A stretch of DNA of 64,000 nt. It comes from Gammaproteobacteria bacterium. GTDB taxonomy: Bacteria; Pseudomonadota; Gammaproteobacteria; Steroidobacterales; Foliamicaceae. This document shows, one piece after another, positions 182 to 61,303 of the stretch. The notes under the pieces are model-generated. The model did no database searches. It worked only from the letters and a program-made list of their open reading frames with translations, and had not been told where the DNA came from. The stretch covers positions 1 through 64,000 of the forward strand of contig JAPPHC010000021.1 in NCBI GenBank assembly GCA_028821145.1. The letters are read 5' to 3'. Positions within the stretch are counted from its first letter, which is position 1, and each line of letters opens with the position of its first letter. A program made the translations under genes and the position numbers.

Positions 182-2329
182 TCACGCCTTCAGCCCGTAC
201 AGGGGCTGTTCGCCTTCGACCTCGCCAACCACGACACCGGGCTCCCGGTCCTCCGGCCAGGCATCGACGTGGAGATTTACGCGGCGGCGAACGCCGGCTT
301 CCGCATTGCCGGCCAGATCCACCGGTTCGAACACCGAGACGTACTGAACGTCGCATCGATCCGGCGATATCCGCGCAACGAGGAAGCCGTGCGCGTCCGC
401 GTCCACGTAGTTCATGTACGGATTCACCTCGGGATCCGACGCCTGCAGAACTTCCTCCGGACCTGCTCCGCCGAACACGGCGTTGGCGGACGCGGCGCCG
501 TGCAGCATCCAGGCGTTTAGTGAAGGCATGATCGCCTGCTCGTAGCCCTGCGCGTTGCCGTCGAAGGTCACGAGCTTGCTGACTTCGGAATCGTGGGCGG
601 ACAGTTCCCTCTGGATGATCATCCGGCTGACCGCGCTGACCGCGCCTCCCGCGAACTCGGGCATTACGGCCACCGGTTCGTCGGCATCGAAGTCATCGCG
701 GATAACGCCGGCCAGGTGCGCGTGGCGGTCGCCGGTCAGTGAAACGACATTGGTGATCCGTTCGTCCCGGACAAAGGAGCAGATCTCCGTGCGTTCGACC
801 GGGTAGCCGTCCCAGCCGTCGGTCCAGAGCAGGCCGTTTTTGTGGCCGCCTTCGCGAAAACTGTCGTCGAAGCCATGGCGGATCAGGCCCACGTTCAAGC
901 CCATCAGCTTCCACCTGGCGCCGCTGTTCTTCAGGCCGCTCTTCAACCAGTCCTTCTGCCGCCGGCCAAGCATCGAGCCCATCGGCATGTCCTTGCGCGG
1001 GTTCGGCAAAGTCCTGCCGAGGTAAACCACTTCGTCCGGCGGATTGCCGCCGTTTGCGGTGCGGCCCGCGTTCAGGGTACGGATCAGCAACGGATCCACC
1101 GGCGCTTCCGGATAGGGGTGCCGCCCGATCGACAGCAGCTCCTGGGACAGCCCGCGCGGTCCCCGGTAGCTCCGGCCGTCGATCACGAACAGTTCCGCGA
1201 GATCACCCCATTTCAGCGAGCGATATATCGTCATCGAGTCGATCGCCGCGAGATTGTTGGGCTCATGGCTGAGATAGTGATCGTCAAAATCGCCCGCGGG
1301 CGTTGCGGTCACGTCAACCGGCGCGAAATCGCTCGCATGCGATGCCTGGCTGTCGCGGCCCCCGGCGCTCAGGGCCGCGGGGACGTATTCGAACCATGCC
1401 TGATTGGACGCGACCTTCAGTTCCGCGATGGACTGCTCCCGGTAGTAGCTCTGCCAGTAGTCGTTCAGCAGTTCATGGTCGTCCCAGATCTGCACGAACG
1501 GATACAGCGCCCTCGCCTCCTGCAGATCGGGGTCCGTCAGGTACCTCTTGTACAGCCAGCGATAGTCGTCCAGATCGACGGGCGCGATCCAGTTTCGCCC
1601 CGCCACTCGTCCGCCGGAAGGAAACGGCGCGCACCGGCGCACGCTCCCGTCGCGGTTCAAGAGTTTCAGGCGGTTGCCGTTGTGGTCCGGTTCCGCAATC
1701 GTGTCCGGTCCGCGGATCGATTCGTAGATGAAGTCGCCCACGTGCATCACAAAATCGATCCGGTCTTCGGGCCGCGCGGCGTTGTCGTCGAGAATCAGCC
1801 GTCGGTAAGCGGTGAAGTAGCCCTGTTCGTAGTCCTGGCAGGAAAAAACCGCGATGTTGAGCTGTCTTGTAGTTCCGACCGGCGCCGTCCGGGTCCTTCC
1901 CGTGCGGCTGGTTCCGCCGTCGGGGCCGATGAATCGGTAGTAGTAGAACCGGTCGGGCCCGAGGTCCGTGACCAGGACCCGGACCGTATGGTCCAGTTCG
2001 AGCAGTGCGGCAATTTCGGTCTCGGCGACAACGGAGTCAAATGACGGGTCCGTTGCGATCTGCGCGGTCAGACCGACGGCATCCGAACCCCCTTCCACCC
2101 GGGTCCAGATCACGACGGCGTCGGACTGGGGATCGGCCGAGGCAACGCCCTGCGGGAAAGAGAACCGCGACGGCTGGCCGCCCGGCCTGGCGCAGCCGCC
2201 CAGCGCCCCGGGGGACGCGCCGACCACGAAGCAGCCGGCCGCGGCCGAGAAATACCGGAGCAGATCGCGCCGCGAAATCACGGTTGCCGGTGCCGCTTGA
2301 CTGGTCGACACGGCGGGCTCAGGACCCAT
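182..2329 (-). CDS. PhoD-like alkaline phosphatase, Tat-type signal
   Basis: SRRDLLRYFSAAAG twin-arginine-like leader; FSFPQGVASADPQSDAVVIWTRV and HVGDFIYE / WDDHELLNDYW PhoD motifs. Confidence 0.9.
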   Translation of the reverse strand: MGPEPAVSTSQAAPATVISRRDLLRYFSAAAGCFVVGASPGALGGCARPGGQPSRFSFPQGVASADPQSDAVVIWTRVEGGSDAVGLTAQIATDPSFDSVVAETEIAALLELDHTVRVLVTDLGPDRFYYYRFIGPDGGTSRTGRTRTAPVGTTRQLNIAVFSCQDYEQGYFTAYRRLILDDNAARPEDRIDFVMHVGDFIYESIRGPDTIAEPDHNGNRLKLLNRDGSVRRCAPFPSGGRVAGRNWIAPVDLDDYRWLYKRYLTDPDLQEARALYPFVQIWDDHELLNDYWQSYYREQSIAELKVASNQAWFEYVPAALSAGGRDSQASHASDFAPVDVTATPAGDFDDHYLSHEPNNLAAIDSMTIYRSLKWGDLAELFVIDGRSYRGPRGLSQELLSIGRHPYPEAPVDPLLIRTLNAGRTANGGNPPDEVVYLGRTLPNPRKDMPMGSMLGRRQKDWLKSGLKNSGARWKLMGLNVGLIRHGFDDSFREGGHKNGLLWTDGWDGYPVERTEICSFVRDERITNVVSLTGDRHAHLAGVIRDDFDADEPVAVMPEFAGGAVSAVSRMIIQRELSAHDSEVSKLVTFDGNAQGYEQAIMPSLNAWMLHGAASANAVFGGAGPEEVLQASDPEVNPYMNYVDADAHGFLVARISPDRCDVQYVSVFEPVDLAGNAEAGVRRRVNLHVDAWPEDREPGVVVGEVEGEQPLYGLKA

Positions 2330-5033
2330 TCAGGTGGTCGCGTATCTGCCGAAGCAGGTTGACCTGGTGCGCCCGGTCCGCATCGTCGAACGTGGTCGCC
2401 AGGAACACCGCGACCAGATCGTGCTCCTGATTCACGTAGATCAACTGTCCGAGTCCGCCCGACGCAAGCAGTTCGCCCTCGGAGTTGTCCAGCACGCGGA
2501 ACTGGTTATGGTAGAAGACCGCTGTTCCGAACCGGGCCAGTTCCTCTTCGTCGTTCATTGCCTGACGAACGCCGTCATTGCCCGCGATCGTCCGCCGGAT
2601 CCACGACCGGGGAACGATCTGCCGGCCGAGGAAATGCCCGTCGCCTTCGATCACGAGTCCGAGCCGGGCAAGATCGCGCAAGGCGGCGCCTATCCCGGCG
2701 CTTGCGAATCCATGACCGGCAGGATCGACAATGACGATGGCGTCGCGCTCGGCACCCAGCCTGGACCAGAGCTTCTCCGCCAGGACCTCCTGCCAGTTGC
2801 GCCGGTAGGCGCGCGAGATCGACCAGGCGACGATCTCCGTATTCACAGGCGAGTAGAAGAAACTTCTGCCGTGTTCGCCATTCGCAGGAACCGTGGCGGC
2901 CAGCTCCAGCGTATTGCGATACGGAAATTCCTCGAAGCGGCGATGGAATCCTCCCGCCATGAAGTTGAGGAGCCGATAGGAACGCGGATCGTCCCAGCTC
3001 ATCGGTGCCTCCACGCCCAACGCCATATCGAGGGCGTGCTGCAGACTGGCGTTCGCCACGCCGGCCCCCGCCAGTTCGGGCAAGACGTCGCCGAGAGGCC
3101 GCTCAAGGTCCAGGCGGCCTTCCGCCTGGGCGATTCCGGCGAGCAGCCCGACGAACGACTTGGACACCGAATTGAGTTGATGGCGCGCATCCGGCGCAAA
3201 GCCGTTGTAGTAGAGCTCGGCCAGGATCGCACCCTCACGGACCAGGATGAAGCCGTCCGTGCCGATCGCGGCCAGGATCTCCTTCAGTGGCGCGGGTTCA
3301 CCGTTTTTTCCGGCGAATGAAGCCGTCGCGAGCGTGCAGTCGCCATAGGGAAGTGCGCTGACGGGCCCTTCGCCGCGGCTGATGGGATCGACTCTCAGAA
3401 TCTTCGACACGTTCTGGTGTGACCACAGCACCTGTTCGTAGTCCCGGGCCCAGGCGAGTCCGTCCGTAACGATCCGGTCCGGTGCGACCGGCACGCCCCG
3501 CATGTAGTGCGATCGGTTCGTGGGTTCGAGTCGTTCCGGCCCGCAAGTCGCGGCCTGCGGCTTGGTGGCGCTTCGATCCCGCCCTGAGCTTGCCTCCGCC
3601 TCGTGGGAGACGCATGAAGTCATCCTGACGCTTGGCGGCGACTCCTGTCGCCGACACTCCCACGAGGCGGAGGCAAGCTCAGGGCTTCCGGTGGCGTGGC
3701 GCCGTTCGAGCGATGCGTCGATTTGCCGGATCAGATCGACCTGAAAATTGCGCAACGGCCTGGACGGGGTCACCGCCAGAAACACGGCGACGACATTCGA
3801 CTCCATGTTCACGTAGATGCGTTGCCCCATGTGCCCCTGGGCGACGAACTCGCCGCGCTCGCCGTTCAGCACCCTGAAATGGTTGCGGTAGAAGGCGACG
3901 TGGGGCCGCTTCGCCGCTTCCTCGGAAGCCTGCCAGGCGGCCAGCGCCCCGGCGTCGCCCGCGCGCACGTCAAGCAACCAGTCCGCGGGCAGGATCTGCT
4001 CGCCGTTCAAACGGCCTTCCTGCTCCAGCATCAGGCCGAAGCGCGCGAAATCGCGAAGCGTGGCGCTGAATCCGGCCGTGGCGAAACCGTGCCCTCCGGG
4101 GTCGACCGTGATCAGAGCGTCATGCTCGGCGCCCAGCCTGGACCAGATGCGCTCGGCGAACGCCTCCTGCCAGTTCCTTCCTTCCAGCCTCGAGATGATC
4201 CAGCCGAGCGTTTCGGTGTTGCCCGGGTTGTACAGGCCGGCTTCGCCATGCCTTCCGGCCTTCTCCACCGACTGCAGAAACTCGAGCGTGTTCGGATAAG
4301 GAAAATCGGCGGGCCGCGACTGAAAACCACCGGCTTTGGAATTGAGATCCACCTGTGAGGTGGGATCCGCCCGGTCGTGATTCCAGACCACGTTCGTGGT
4401 CATATCCAGTACCTGGCGAATGGTCGCGTCGCCGTAACCGGAACCCGCCAGTTCCGGCAGGTAATGCGCGACCGTCTGGGCCAGGTCCACGCGGCCTTCG
4501 TGAACCAGGATGCCCATCAGCGAGCCCACCAGCGACTTGGTGACCGAGAACCCGATGTGGCGGCGGGTCGGCCCGAAACCGTTGAAGTAGACCTCGGTCT
4601 GCACGACGCCGTCTTTCAGAAGAATGAACCCGTCGATTCCCATGCCCTTGAGAATCTGCTGCAGCGGCGCGCGGTTCGAATCCGGCGCCGTGAACGACTG
4701 CTGCAGCAGACCGGTCCATTCGTAGGCCAGCGGTAGAACCGGCCCGGTGCCCCGGCTGACAAATTCCGTCGGCAGGATCTTGCTTATGTTCTGGAAGGAC
4801 CACTTGCCCTTTTCCGGGTCGAGCGCCCAGGAGTGATCGCTGTCAATGAGCCCGTCGGGCGGCGGCGGAAATCCGCGCATGTAATCCGTCTGGTACTCGC
4901 GCTCGACGATCACGTACGGCGGATCGCCAGGCGGGTCTTCCCGAGGGACTTCGCAAGAGGCCAGCGGCAAGGCCGCGCCGATCAGCAAGGCGATCCCGGC
5001 GCCGACGCTCTTGCCGTATGTGTCAGGCCGCAT
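2319..5033 (-). CDS. Tandem two-domain serine hydrolase (beta-lactamase/class C-like), fused duplicate
   Basis: Two homologous halves, each with an S-x-x-K motif (SVTKSLVG, SVSKSFVG) and repeated YMRG..P..., SKIL...SRG.GPV, IDGFIL.. segments; lipoprotein-like leader only on the first half. Confidence 0.85.
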   Translation of the reverse strand: MRPDTYGKSVGAGIALLIGAALPLASCEVPREDPPGDPPYVIVEREYQTDYMRGFPPPPDGLIDSDHSWALDPEKGKWSFQNISKILPTEFVSRGTGPVLPLAYEWTGLLQQSFTAPDSNRAPLQQILKGMGIDGFILLKDGVVQTEVYFNGFGPTRRHIGFSVTKSLVGSLMGILVHEGRVDLAQTVAHYLPELAGSGYGDATIRQVLDMTTNVVWNHDRADPTSQVDLNSKAGGFQSRPADFPYPNTLEFLQSVEKAGRHGEAGLYNPGNTETLGWIISRLEGRNWQEAFAERIWSRLGAEHDALITVDPGGHGFATAGFSATLRDFARFGLMLEQEGRLNGEQILPADWLLDVRAGDAGALAAWQASEEAAKRPHVAFYRNHFRVLNGERGEFVAQGHMGQRIYVNMESNVVAVFLAVTPSRPLRNFQVDLIRQIDASLERRHATGSPELASASWECRRQESPPSVRMTSCVSHEAEASSGRDRSATKPQAATCGPERLEPTNRSHYMRGVPVAPDRIVTDGLAWARDYEQVLWSHQNVSKILRVDPISRGEGPVSALPYGDCTLATASFAGKNGEPAPLKEILAAIGTDGFILVREGAILAELYYNGFAPDARHQLNSVSKSFVGLLAGIAQAEGRLDLERPLGDVLPELAGAGVANASLQHALDMALGVEAPMSWDDPRSYRLLNFMAGGFHRRFEEFPYRNTLELAATVPANGEHGRSFFYSPVNTEIVAWSISRAYRRNWQEVLAEKLWSRLGAERDAIVIVDPAGHGFASAGIGAALRDLARLGLVIEGDGHFLGRQIVPRSWIRRTIAGNDGVRQAMNDEEELARFGTAVFYHNQFRVLDNSEGELLASGGLGQLIYVNQEHDLVAVFLATTFDDADRAHQVNLLRQIRDHLNGS
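3581..3685 (-). repeat. Hairpin element H1 (29 bp perfect arms 3581-3609 / 3657-3685, 47 nt loop), in the linker of the fused hydrolase
   Basis: gccctgagcttgcctccgcctcgtgggag pairs perfectly with ctcccacgaggcggaggcaagctcagggc; reverse-complement loop tgtcggcgacaggagtcgccgccaagcgtcaggatgacttcatgcgt matches the H3/H5/H6 loops. Confidence 0.95.
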
Positions 5034-8453: not shown

Positions 8454-8552
8454 GCCCTTCGTTTGTCCCCCTCCTCGTGGGAGCGTTGGAGCAGGACAGC
8501 GAGAATCGAGCCAGGATGGCGCCTCCAACGAGGAGGGGGACGAACGAAGGGC
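8454..8552 (+). repeat. Hairpin element H2 (30 nt arms, 39 nt loop), short-loop subfamily
   Basis: gcccttcgtttgtccccctcctcgtgggag ... ctccaacgaggagggggacgaacgaagggc; loop matches H4 almost exactly. Confidence 0.95.
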
Positions 8553-24960: not shown

Positions 24961-25070
24961 CGCCGGCTGCTGACCCCTGCCTGCCGGGAGTGTCGGAGCC
25001 AGGGATGGCGACGCCAAGCTCCATGGATGGATTCATGCGGCTCCCGGCAGGCAGGGGTCAGCAGCCGGCG
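24961..25070 (+). repeat. Hairpin element H3 (30 bp perfect arms 24961-24990/25041-25070, 50 nt loop)
   Basis: cgccggctgctgacccctgcctgccgggag / ctcccggcaggcaggggtcagcagccggcg perfect complement. Confidence 0.97.
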
Positions 25071-37442: not shown

Positions 37443-37514
37443 GGAGCGAGGGCGTCTCGCCCTCGAAATCAGCCAGCGCTTTGTGCACTACCGAGGGCGA
37501 GACGCCCTCGCTCC
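37443..37514. repeat. Inverted repeat, family R2 (23 bp perfect arms, 26 nt loop)
   Basis: ggagcgagggcgtctcgccctcg / cgagggcgagacgccctcgctcc; half copy at 21228-21250. Confidence 0.93.
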
Positions 37515-41063: not shown

Positions 41064-41834
41064 ATGGCGGTTTGGGCGGTGGGGGACGTGCAGGGGTGTC
41101 TCGGGCCCCTGGACGAGTTGCTGGACCGGATCGGGTTCGAGCCGGGGCGCGACCGGCTGTGGTTCTGCGGCGACCTGGTCAATCGCGGGCCGGACTCGGC
41201 GGGCGTGCTGACGCGGGTCCGCGAACTGAAGGACGCGGTCGTCGTCGTGCTCGGCAACCACGACCTGCACTGGCTGGCGCAAAAGGTTCACGAGCAGGAT
41301 GCCGAAGTGCGCGCGCATGCGGAATGGCTGCGCAAGCAGCCGCTGGCGCATTTCGACGCGGACCTGAATTGCCTGCTGGTGCATGCCGGGGTGTTGCCCG
41401 GCTGGGACCTGGAGCACGCGCTGGCGCGGGCCGCGGAGGTGGAGAGCGTGCTGCGGGACGCGCACTATCGGGACTTCCTGGCCGACATGTACGGCAACGT
41501 GCCCAATTGCTGGCAGGACGAGCTTTCGGGAACCCGGCGCCTGCGGATGATCGTCAACGCCTTCACGCGGATGCGGATGGTGGATGCGCAGGGCCGGCTG
41601 GATTTTTCGTACAAGGGGCCGCCCGGCAAACAGCCGCCCTATCTCGCTCCCTGGTTCGCGCGCGTGGGAAAACTGCCGACCGGCTGCAGGGTCGTGTTCG
41701 GGCACTGGTCGGCGCTGGGGTGCTTCGTTACCGATCGCCATATCGCGCTGGATTCGGGCTGCGTCTGGGGCGGATCGCTGGCCGCGGTCCGGCTGGACGG
41801 CCCACCCCGATGCGTCAGCGTGCCCGGTCTCTGA
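41064..41834 (+). CDS. apaH: Symmetrical bis(5'-nucleosyl)-tetraphosphatase
   Basis: AVWAVGDVQGCLGPLDELLDRIGF; LWFCGDLVNRGPDS; VLGNHDLHWLA. Confidence 0.97.
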   Translation: MAVWAVGDVQGCLGPLDELLDRIGFEPGRDRLWFCGDLVNRGPDSAGVLTRVRELKDAVVVVLGNHDLHWLAQKVHEQDAEVRAHAEWLRKQPLAHFDADLNCLLVHAGVLPGWDLEHALARAAEVESVLRDAHYRDFLADMYGNVPNCWQDELSGTRRLRMIVNAFTRMRMVDAQGRLDFSYKGPPGKQPPYLAPWFARVGKLPTGCRVVFGHWSALGCFVTDRHIALDSGCVWGGSLAAVRLDGPPRCVSVPGL

Positions 41835-41846
41835 CGCTTCGATCCC

Positions 41847-41946
41847 GCCCTTCTTTTGCCCGCCTCCTCGTTGGAGACGCCATCCTGGCTCGATTCTCGC
41901 TGTCCCTGCTCCAACGCTCCCACGAGGAGGCGGGCAAAAGAAGGGC
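41847..41946 (-). repeat. Hairpin element H4 (30 nt arms, 40 nt loop), short-loop subfamily
   Basis: gcccttcttttgcccgcctcctcg (41847-41870) perfectly complementary to 41923-41946; loop nearly identical to H2 in reverse complement. Confidence 0.97.
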
Positions 41947-45017: not shown

Positions 45018-45127
45018 GCCTTTTCTTTCCCCCGGTCCTTCCGGGAGTGTTGGAGGCAGGGATGCCGGAACCAAGCTCCATGGATGGATTCATGCGTCTC
45101 CCGGAAGGGCCGGGGGAAAGAAAAGGC
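45018..45127 (+). repeat. Hairpin element H5 (30 nt arms 45018-45047/45098-45127, one G-T; 50 nt loop)
   Basis: gccttttctttcccccggtccttccgggag / ctcccggaagggccgggggaaagaaaaggc. Confidence 0.97.
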
Positions 45128-60500: not shown

Positions 60501-61205
60501 ATGAGCACGTCCGCCATCCGTACGCGCGAGTTGACGCGGACCTACCGTATGGGAACCGATACGGTGGTGGCGCTGTGCGACGTCAGCCTGGCGGTGCGGC
60601 CCAACGAGTACCTGGCCGTCACGGGCCCGTCCGGATCGGGAAAATCGACGCTGATGAACCTGCTCGGCTGCCTGGAGACGCCCACCGCGGGAGACTATTG
60701 GCTGAACGGCGTGCACGTGTCGCGCATGAGCGGCCGGGAGCTGGCCAGGGTGCGCAACCGGCAGGTGGGTTTCGTGTTCCAGACCTTCAATCTGCTGGAG
60801 CGCTGCAGCGCCGTGCAGAATGTGGAGGCGCCCCTGATCTATGCCCGGATGCGCCGCCGCGAACGCCTGAAGCGGGCGACCGAGGCCCTGGAACGGGTCG
60901 GGCTGGCCGACCGCCTCGCGCACCGGCCCAGCCAGCTCTCGGGCGGGCAGCGGCAAAGAGTGGCGATCGCGCGCGCGCTGGTTACGCGCCCGAGCATCTT
61001 GCTGGCGGACGAACCGACGGGTAATCTGGACTCCGCGACCGGAGCGGAAGTCCTGACATTGTTCGATTCCCTGCACAGTGACGGTCACACGCTGATCGTC
61101 GTTACCCATGACGCCGGCATCGCCGCGCGCGCCCAGCGCAGGATCGAGATGCTGGACGGCCGGATCAAGGCCGACACCGGCGCCTCCGGTGAAGCCCGTG
61201 CTTGA
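60501..61205 (+). CDS. ABC transporter ATP-binding protein (MacB/LolD-like)
   Basis: [67 protein letters not shown]. Confidence 0.96.
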
Positions 61206-61303
61206 TTCCCCCTTTGCGTGGAGCGTCGGCGGCAGGACAGCCGCCGCCGAGCCCCATGGACGGGTTCATGCGTCTCCACGCAAAGGGGGAATCAAGCACG
61301 GGC
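61194..61303 (+). repeat. Hairpin element H6 (30 bp perfect arms 61194-61223/61274-61303, 50 nt loop); left arm contains the ATPase stop codon
   Basis: gcccgtgcttgattccccctttgcgtggag / ctccacgcaaagggggaatcaagcacgggc perfect complement. Confidence 0.97.

Follow-up and report, generated by a model that had tools for sequence, protein, structure and literature searches.

An amplified palindromic repeat as a probable in-frame spacer between two fused NylB-like domains in a gammaproteobacterial genus

The window analysed here, a 64-kb stretch of DNA from a draft gammaproteobacterial genome, carries a gene whose product comprises two serine-hydrolase halves in a single reading frame (Table 1). That these halves are homologous, as had been proposed in a first-pass annotation of the same DNA, is borne out by the alignment of residues 51-440 with residues 510-904 (48% identity over 388 aa, E 9e-124), and each half separately matches PF00144 (96.6 and 82.2 bits against a curated cut-off of 27). 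The closest solved structure by sequence is, for both halves, that of the 6-aminohexanoate-dimer hydrolase NylB (PDB 1wyc), which aligns with E 1.6e-54 to the whole protein, the best stretch lying in half 1, and with E 1.2e-46 to half 2. The motifs SVTK 163-166 (S163-K166) with Tyr268 in half 1 and SVSK 622-625 (S622-K625) with Tyr727 in half 2 align with the SxxK serine and lysine and the downstream tyrosine that are the catalytic residues of NylB. Both halves share these NylB positions; the fused protein differs from NylB in holding two such domains within one lipoprotein. With the class C beta-lactamase model (NCBIfam bla_class_C) it scores 37 bits, below the cut-off of 415, and its scores with beta-lactamase equivalog models were far under their cut-offs. 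An AlphaFold model of the fused protein, computed from three sequences only, reached a mean pLDDT of 28, too low for the model to be of use.

The fused gene was found in five separately assembled species of the genus, designated G000, G001 (97%), G005 (90%), G002 and G006. Reading of the sequence identifies a single leader with a lipobox (LPLASC) in the 904-aa protein, at residues 1-27, and a lipobox leader is absent from residues 485-510, ahead of half 2, in keeping with the earlier statement that the first half alone bears one. The leader of the gene in G005 (contig C50) and G006 (contig C9) also holds a second, unrelated in-frame insertion, which consists of two small palindromes, GGAGGACGTCCCGTCCTCC and GGAAGGCGGGACGCCTTCC.

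The junction between the halves is encoded by a palindromic element, H1, whose length of 105 nt (29+47+29) preserves the frame; the inverted repeat, with 29 of 29 arm positions complementary, and the translation both confirm this part of the first-pass annotation. The residues contributed to the fused protein are SPELASASWECRRQESPPSVRMTSCVSHEAEASSG, and two of the six frames through the element are open from end to end, one being the frame used. The folding energy of H1 is -85 kcal/mol, compared to -42 in shuffles (z -10), and the element scores 103.9 bits with a covariance model, R1, constructed from ten copies that include H1 itself.

Table 1. Features of the fused gene, of element H1 and of its repeat family in the window
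Feature	Position	Strand	Remarks
Fused gene, 904 aa, ATG start	2319..5033	minus	two NylB-like/PF00144 serine-hydrolase halves, one frame; ORF call
Half 1, residues 1-440	3714..5033	minus	alignment with NylB; stand-alone relative in G099
Half 2, residues 510-904	2322..3506	minus	own leader absent; PF00144 profile match
Lipoprotein-type leader of half 1, MRPDTYGKSVGAGIALLIGAALPLASC	4953..5033	minus	read from sequence
Palindromic element H1, 105 nt (29+47+29)	3581..3685	minus	encodes residues ~450-485, in frame
H1 5' arm (element sense)	3657..3685	minus	29/29 complementary
H1 loop, 47 nt	3610..3656	minus	two small hairpins: GGCGAC-AGGA-GTCGCC, GTC-AGGAT-GAC
H1 3' arm (element sense)	3581..3609	minus	outer 10-13 nt survive as scar in G006/G002
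3' flank motif GGGATCGAAGCGCC	3567..3580	minus	recurs beside family copies, kept in deletion scars
Family copies in the window	3581-3685, 8454-8552, 24961-25070, 41847-41946, 45018-45127, 61194-61303		

H1 belongs to a repeat family of which the model finds six copies in the window. Within the genus, its matches number from 37 to at least 150 per genome, and those in other families of the order are only scattered and weaker. Members consist of arms of ~30 bp around a conserved loop of 40-50 nt with AGGA/AGGGAT mini-hairpins. The loops are ~69% identical between copies, and the arms share 48% identity (ungapped) between copies, yet are 96.5% self-complementary. The closest relatives of H1 had been described as 110 nt long, a length that three copies in the window do have, but two others measure 99-100 nt, the family spans 96-113 nt across the genus, and the nearest loop relative of H1 seen (G002 C17:6742-6850) is of 109 nt. 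Family copies other than H1 sit outside real coding sequence, often just 3' of a stop codon, and H1 is the one clearly intragenic locus among the element loci examined. A search of Rfam at the gathering score returned no match in the window, a separate search with copy 45018-45127 giving chance-level matches only, and the literature on sponge symbionts or gammaproteobacteria yielded no specific account of the repeat. A RAYT/Y1 transposase was considered as the mobiliser and rejected, as its gene (PF01797) was not found in nine draft genomes of the genus, control genomes being positive.

A 3' flank motif marks a subset of the copies: the shared form CGCTTCGATCCC adjoins the arm at window positions 3567-3580 and 41833-41846, and the motif flanks 11 of the 57 family copies, the background being 0.0017 per 25-nt window, with these eleven counted per genome and representing about five independent places by site. 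At the sites of copies 8454-8552 (in G006) and 41847-41946 (in G006, G005, with two, and G002), some relatives hold elements with different arms and loops, which suggests site re-use or rapid turnover. In G002 the former site lacks an element, and two convergent genes end there almost atop each other. A hairpin of another type, with GGAGCGAGGGCGTCTCGCCCTCG arms and a 26-nt loop, is located at window positions 37443-37514, and G005 possesses a different hairpin at the matching position.

In G000, G001 and G005, H1 lies in frame, at the same place and with the same 105-nt length, whereas in G002 and G006 the fusion is present and the palindrome is missing; the linkers, all in frame, are 69 aa long in the former three genomes, 37 aa in G006 and 31 aa in G002. 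The draft genome from which the window comes is 66% complete, which might have pointed to an assembly or binning artefact, but G001 and G005, as separate assemblies, show the same junction, substitutions aside, so that assembly correctness is corroborated and an artefact is ruled out for practical purposes. In four further genomes (G003, G004, G007 and G008), the synteny check detected neither the neighbouring PhoD gene nor the fused gene, so that these genomes supply no empty locus that would be informative.

G005 and G006 are sisters, with a dS of 0.05-0.09 between them versus about 0.22-0.29 to the others, and the tree agrees. Since G006 is the sister of G005, the absence of H1 in G006 is evidently a secondary deletion; it measures exactly 96 nt and is bounded by two AAGC tetranucleotides. 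The deletion in G002 is of about 114 nt, both losses are multiples of three, and both linkers retain AGCTCAGGGC, from the outer 3' arm, followed by the flank motif. In the tree, the half-2 sequences place G002 with G005/G006 (support 96/87), the half-1 branch giving no resolution, and because of this grouping an independent loss is most likely, such that the absence in G002 is very probably also a deletion, separate from that in G006. H1 was evidently in place before G000/G001 and G005/G006 diverged, and on this evidence it is now dispensable, the fused frame being what is kept. The possibility that G002 and G006 represent pre-insertion sites, with the arms as inverted target copies, was rejected for H1, given that G006 is nested beside G005 and that the flank motif left behind is a feature of the element family. 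Fusions lacking the element in relatives, which the first-pass annotation had held to speak against an element-made junction, do therefore exist in G002 and G006, but phylogeny and scars mark the absence as a secondary deletion in G006 and very probably in G002, and leave the proposal standing.

With a dN/dS of 0.08-0.24, both halves of the gene are evidently under purifying selection. On either side of H1 the GC content by codon position shows a coding pattern, which is the case at no other element locus examined, and the only possible internal starts are ATG471 and ATG511, neither of which is followed by a leader; ATG471 is ACG in G005 and absent in G002 and G006. The in-frame losses, the purifying selection, the coding GC and the few, leaderless internal starts together make one fused polypeptide the best reading, which we infer to be exported by the leader of half 1. 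It is improbable that each half is produced as a protein of its own, with H1 as an mRNA hairpin between them: the hairpin is indeed very stable, at -85 kcal/mol, and ATG511 of half 2 occupies a conserved position, but half 2 is preceded by no leader or clear ribosome-binding site, the frame is kept in five of five genomes despite differing linker lengths, and no T-run lies beside the hairpin, which makes H1 unlike an intrinsic terminator.

The frame neutrality of H1 does not appear to be special and would often be expected by chance. The stretches compared contain 46 hairpins, almost all of them from this family; their lengths are 96-113 nt, except for one of 132 nt and one, of a different type, of 72 nt. 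Eleven have a length divisible by three, three of these being orthologues of H1, and of the 138 sense frames through the hairpins 105 (76%) are free of stops, so that about one insertion in four would be readable by chance; family insertions without a readable frame would escape notice. Between G000 and G005, H1 differs at 5 of 105 nt, all five changes being non-synonymous and none synonymous, and four of them pair up as two compensated changes in the arms (TC to CG in one arm, GA to CG in the opposite one), seen between window 3581-3685 and L022:8654-8758, so that pairing is kept despite read-through. The rest of the linker differs at 15 of 102 positions, above the rate in H1 (P 0.018). In this small sample, the insert thus seems to evolve as a palindrome, via template-switch correction or hairpin constraint, and not as protein, and no protein-level constraint on the 35 element codons is apparent. 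The DNA or RNA hairpin itself could be maintained, and a role as a pure passenger is for that reason not proven.

As to the origin of the fusion, a stand-alone relative of half 1 occurs in G099, a genome from another family; it is 447 aa long and 72% identical, and its stop follows directly on IDASVP, some ten codons ahead of the H1 edge. Because H1 sits where this stand-alone protein ends, a role of H1 in forming the fusion is plausible. There is a fair case, if somewhat short of an even one, that H1, situated in the spacer of tandem genes, made the fusion, its arrival or a subsequent indel eliminating the half-1 stop together with the half-2 leader and providing a stop-free linker. Apart from the end point of the G099 protein, the location of other family copies outside coding sequence, often just past a stop codon, the open state of most sense frames in these copies and the lack of a leader on half 2 are consistent with such a history. 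The search for separate genes at relatives' loci, which the first-pass annotation had pointed to, speaks against it: separate half-1 and half-2 genes were found in none of 396 genomes of the order, only a half 1 on its own turning up, in G099. Furthermore, half 2 branches in the tree before half 1 and the G099 relative separate, and the duplication is therefore old; of the tandem duplication that had been suggested, the fused tandem paralogues are upheld, but half 2 is a long-diverged copy and not a fresh duplicate. The loss of ~5 nt that the first-pass annotation had put forward is conjectural, given that family copies are of variable length and that there is no known pre-insertion site for comparison.

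The reverse order, in which the fusion came first and H1 was later inserted into an existing linker, an in-frame insertion being tolerated there as it is for Rickettsia palindromic elements (PMC10969869), is possible but on balance doubtful. It would fit the persistence of the fused gene without H1 in G002 and G006, the tolerance of the linkers for inserts and the gain by the G005/G006 gene of a further palindromic insert, likewise in frame, within the leader, but five of five fused linkers hold either H1 or its scar, and a never-occupied fused linker is not known. The more general notion that the repeat acts as a gene-welding cassette, which on landing between adjacent genes replaces a stop and a leader with a stop-free, in-frame linker, gives rise to a two-domain enzyme and is later excised to a short in-frame scar, is regarded as speculative and rather unlikely.

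Among known systems, the Rickettsia palindromic elements, which are inserted in frame in many genes (review PMC10969869), represent the closest phenomenon. These palindromes of ~100-150 bp lie in frame in genes whose homologues in relatives are without the insert (PMC10969869), and the same combination is seen for H1, whose insert-free relatives are, however, deletion derivatives. The H1 family differs in belonging to another lineage, that of gammaproteobacterial draft genomes, in lying mostly outside genes, and in arms that vary from copy to copy, while H1 itself sits at the joint of fused domains and its in-frame loss with a scar is visible. The REP/BIME repeats and the GTAG/CGTC-tagged repeat dimers are similarly abundant palindromes that are mostly extragenic and sometimes located in genes, where REP dimers code for 20-30 residues (PMC3733652). 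However, REP units are 20-40 bp long with stems of 5-13 bp (PMC3733652), in contrast to the single unit of 96-113 nt with ~30-bp arms in the H1 family, and the Y1/RAYT gene of REP/RAYT systems is the one not found in nine genomes of the H1 genus. H1 acts in the manner of Rickettsia elements and REP dimers but is a member of a distinct, genus-specific family and lies at a fusion joint.

Judged from the sequence comparisons as a whole, H1 is probably a translated, in-frame passenger spacer between fused NylB-like domains whose fusion is maintained by selection. One member of a palindromic family that has been amplified in the genus, and that was probably mobile at one time, would have come to lie within a genuine coding gene. 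There its in-frame translation would add ~35 dispensable spacer residues between two secreted domains served by a single lipoprotein leader; the insert would presumably be neutral to enzyme function, with selection maintaining the fused frame. H1 would already have been present in the shared ancestor of G000/G001 and G005/G006, with in-frame deletions following in G006 and, in what was most likely a separate event, in G002, each of which left part of an arm and the flank motif as a scar in the linker.

To our knowledge, most descriptions of in-frame palindromic inserts concern Rickettsia. The H1 locus would provide a comparable case in another bacterial class, traceable through presence, in-frame loss and a scar at a gene-fusion joint, and it provides a concrete way of testing whether small repeats contribute to the making of multi-domain proteins. 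If gene welding by such repeats were to prove true, arm-plus-GGGATCGAAGCG-type scars would mark old repeat-made fusions.
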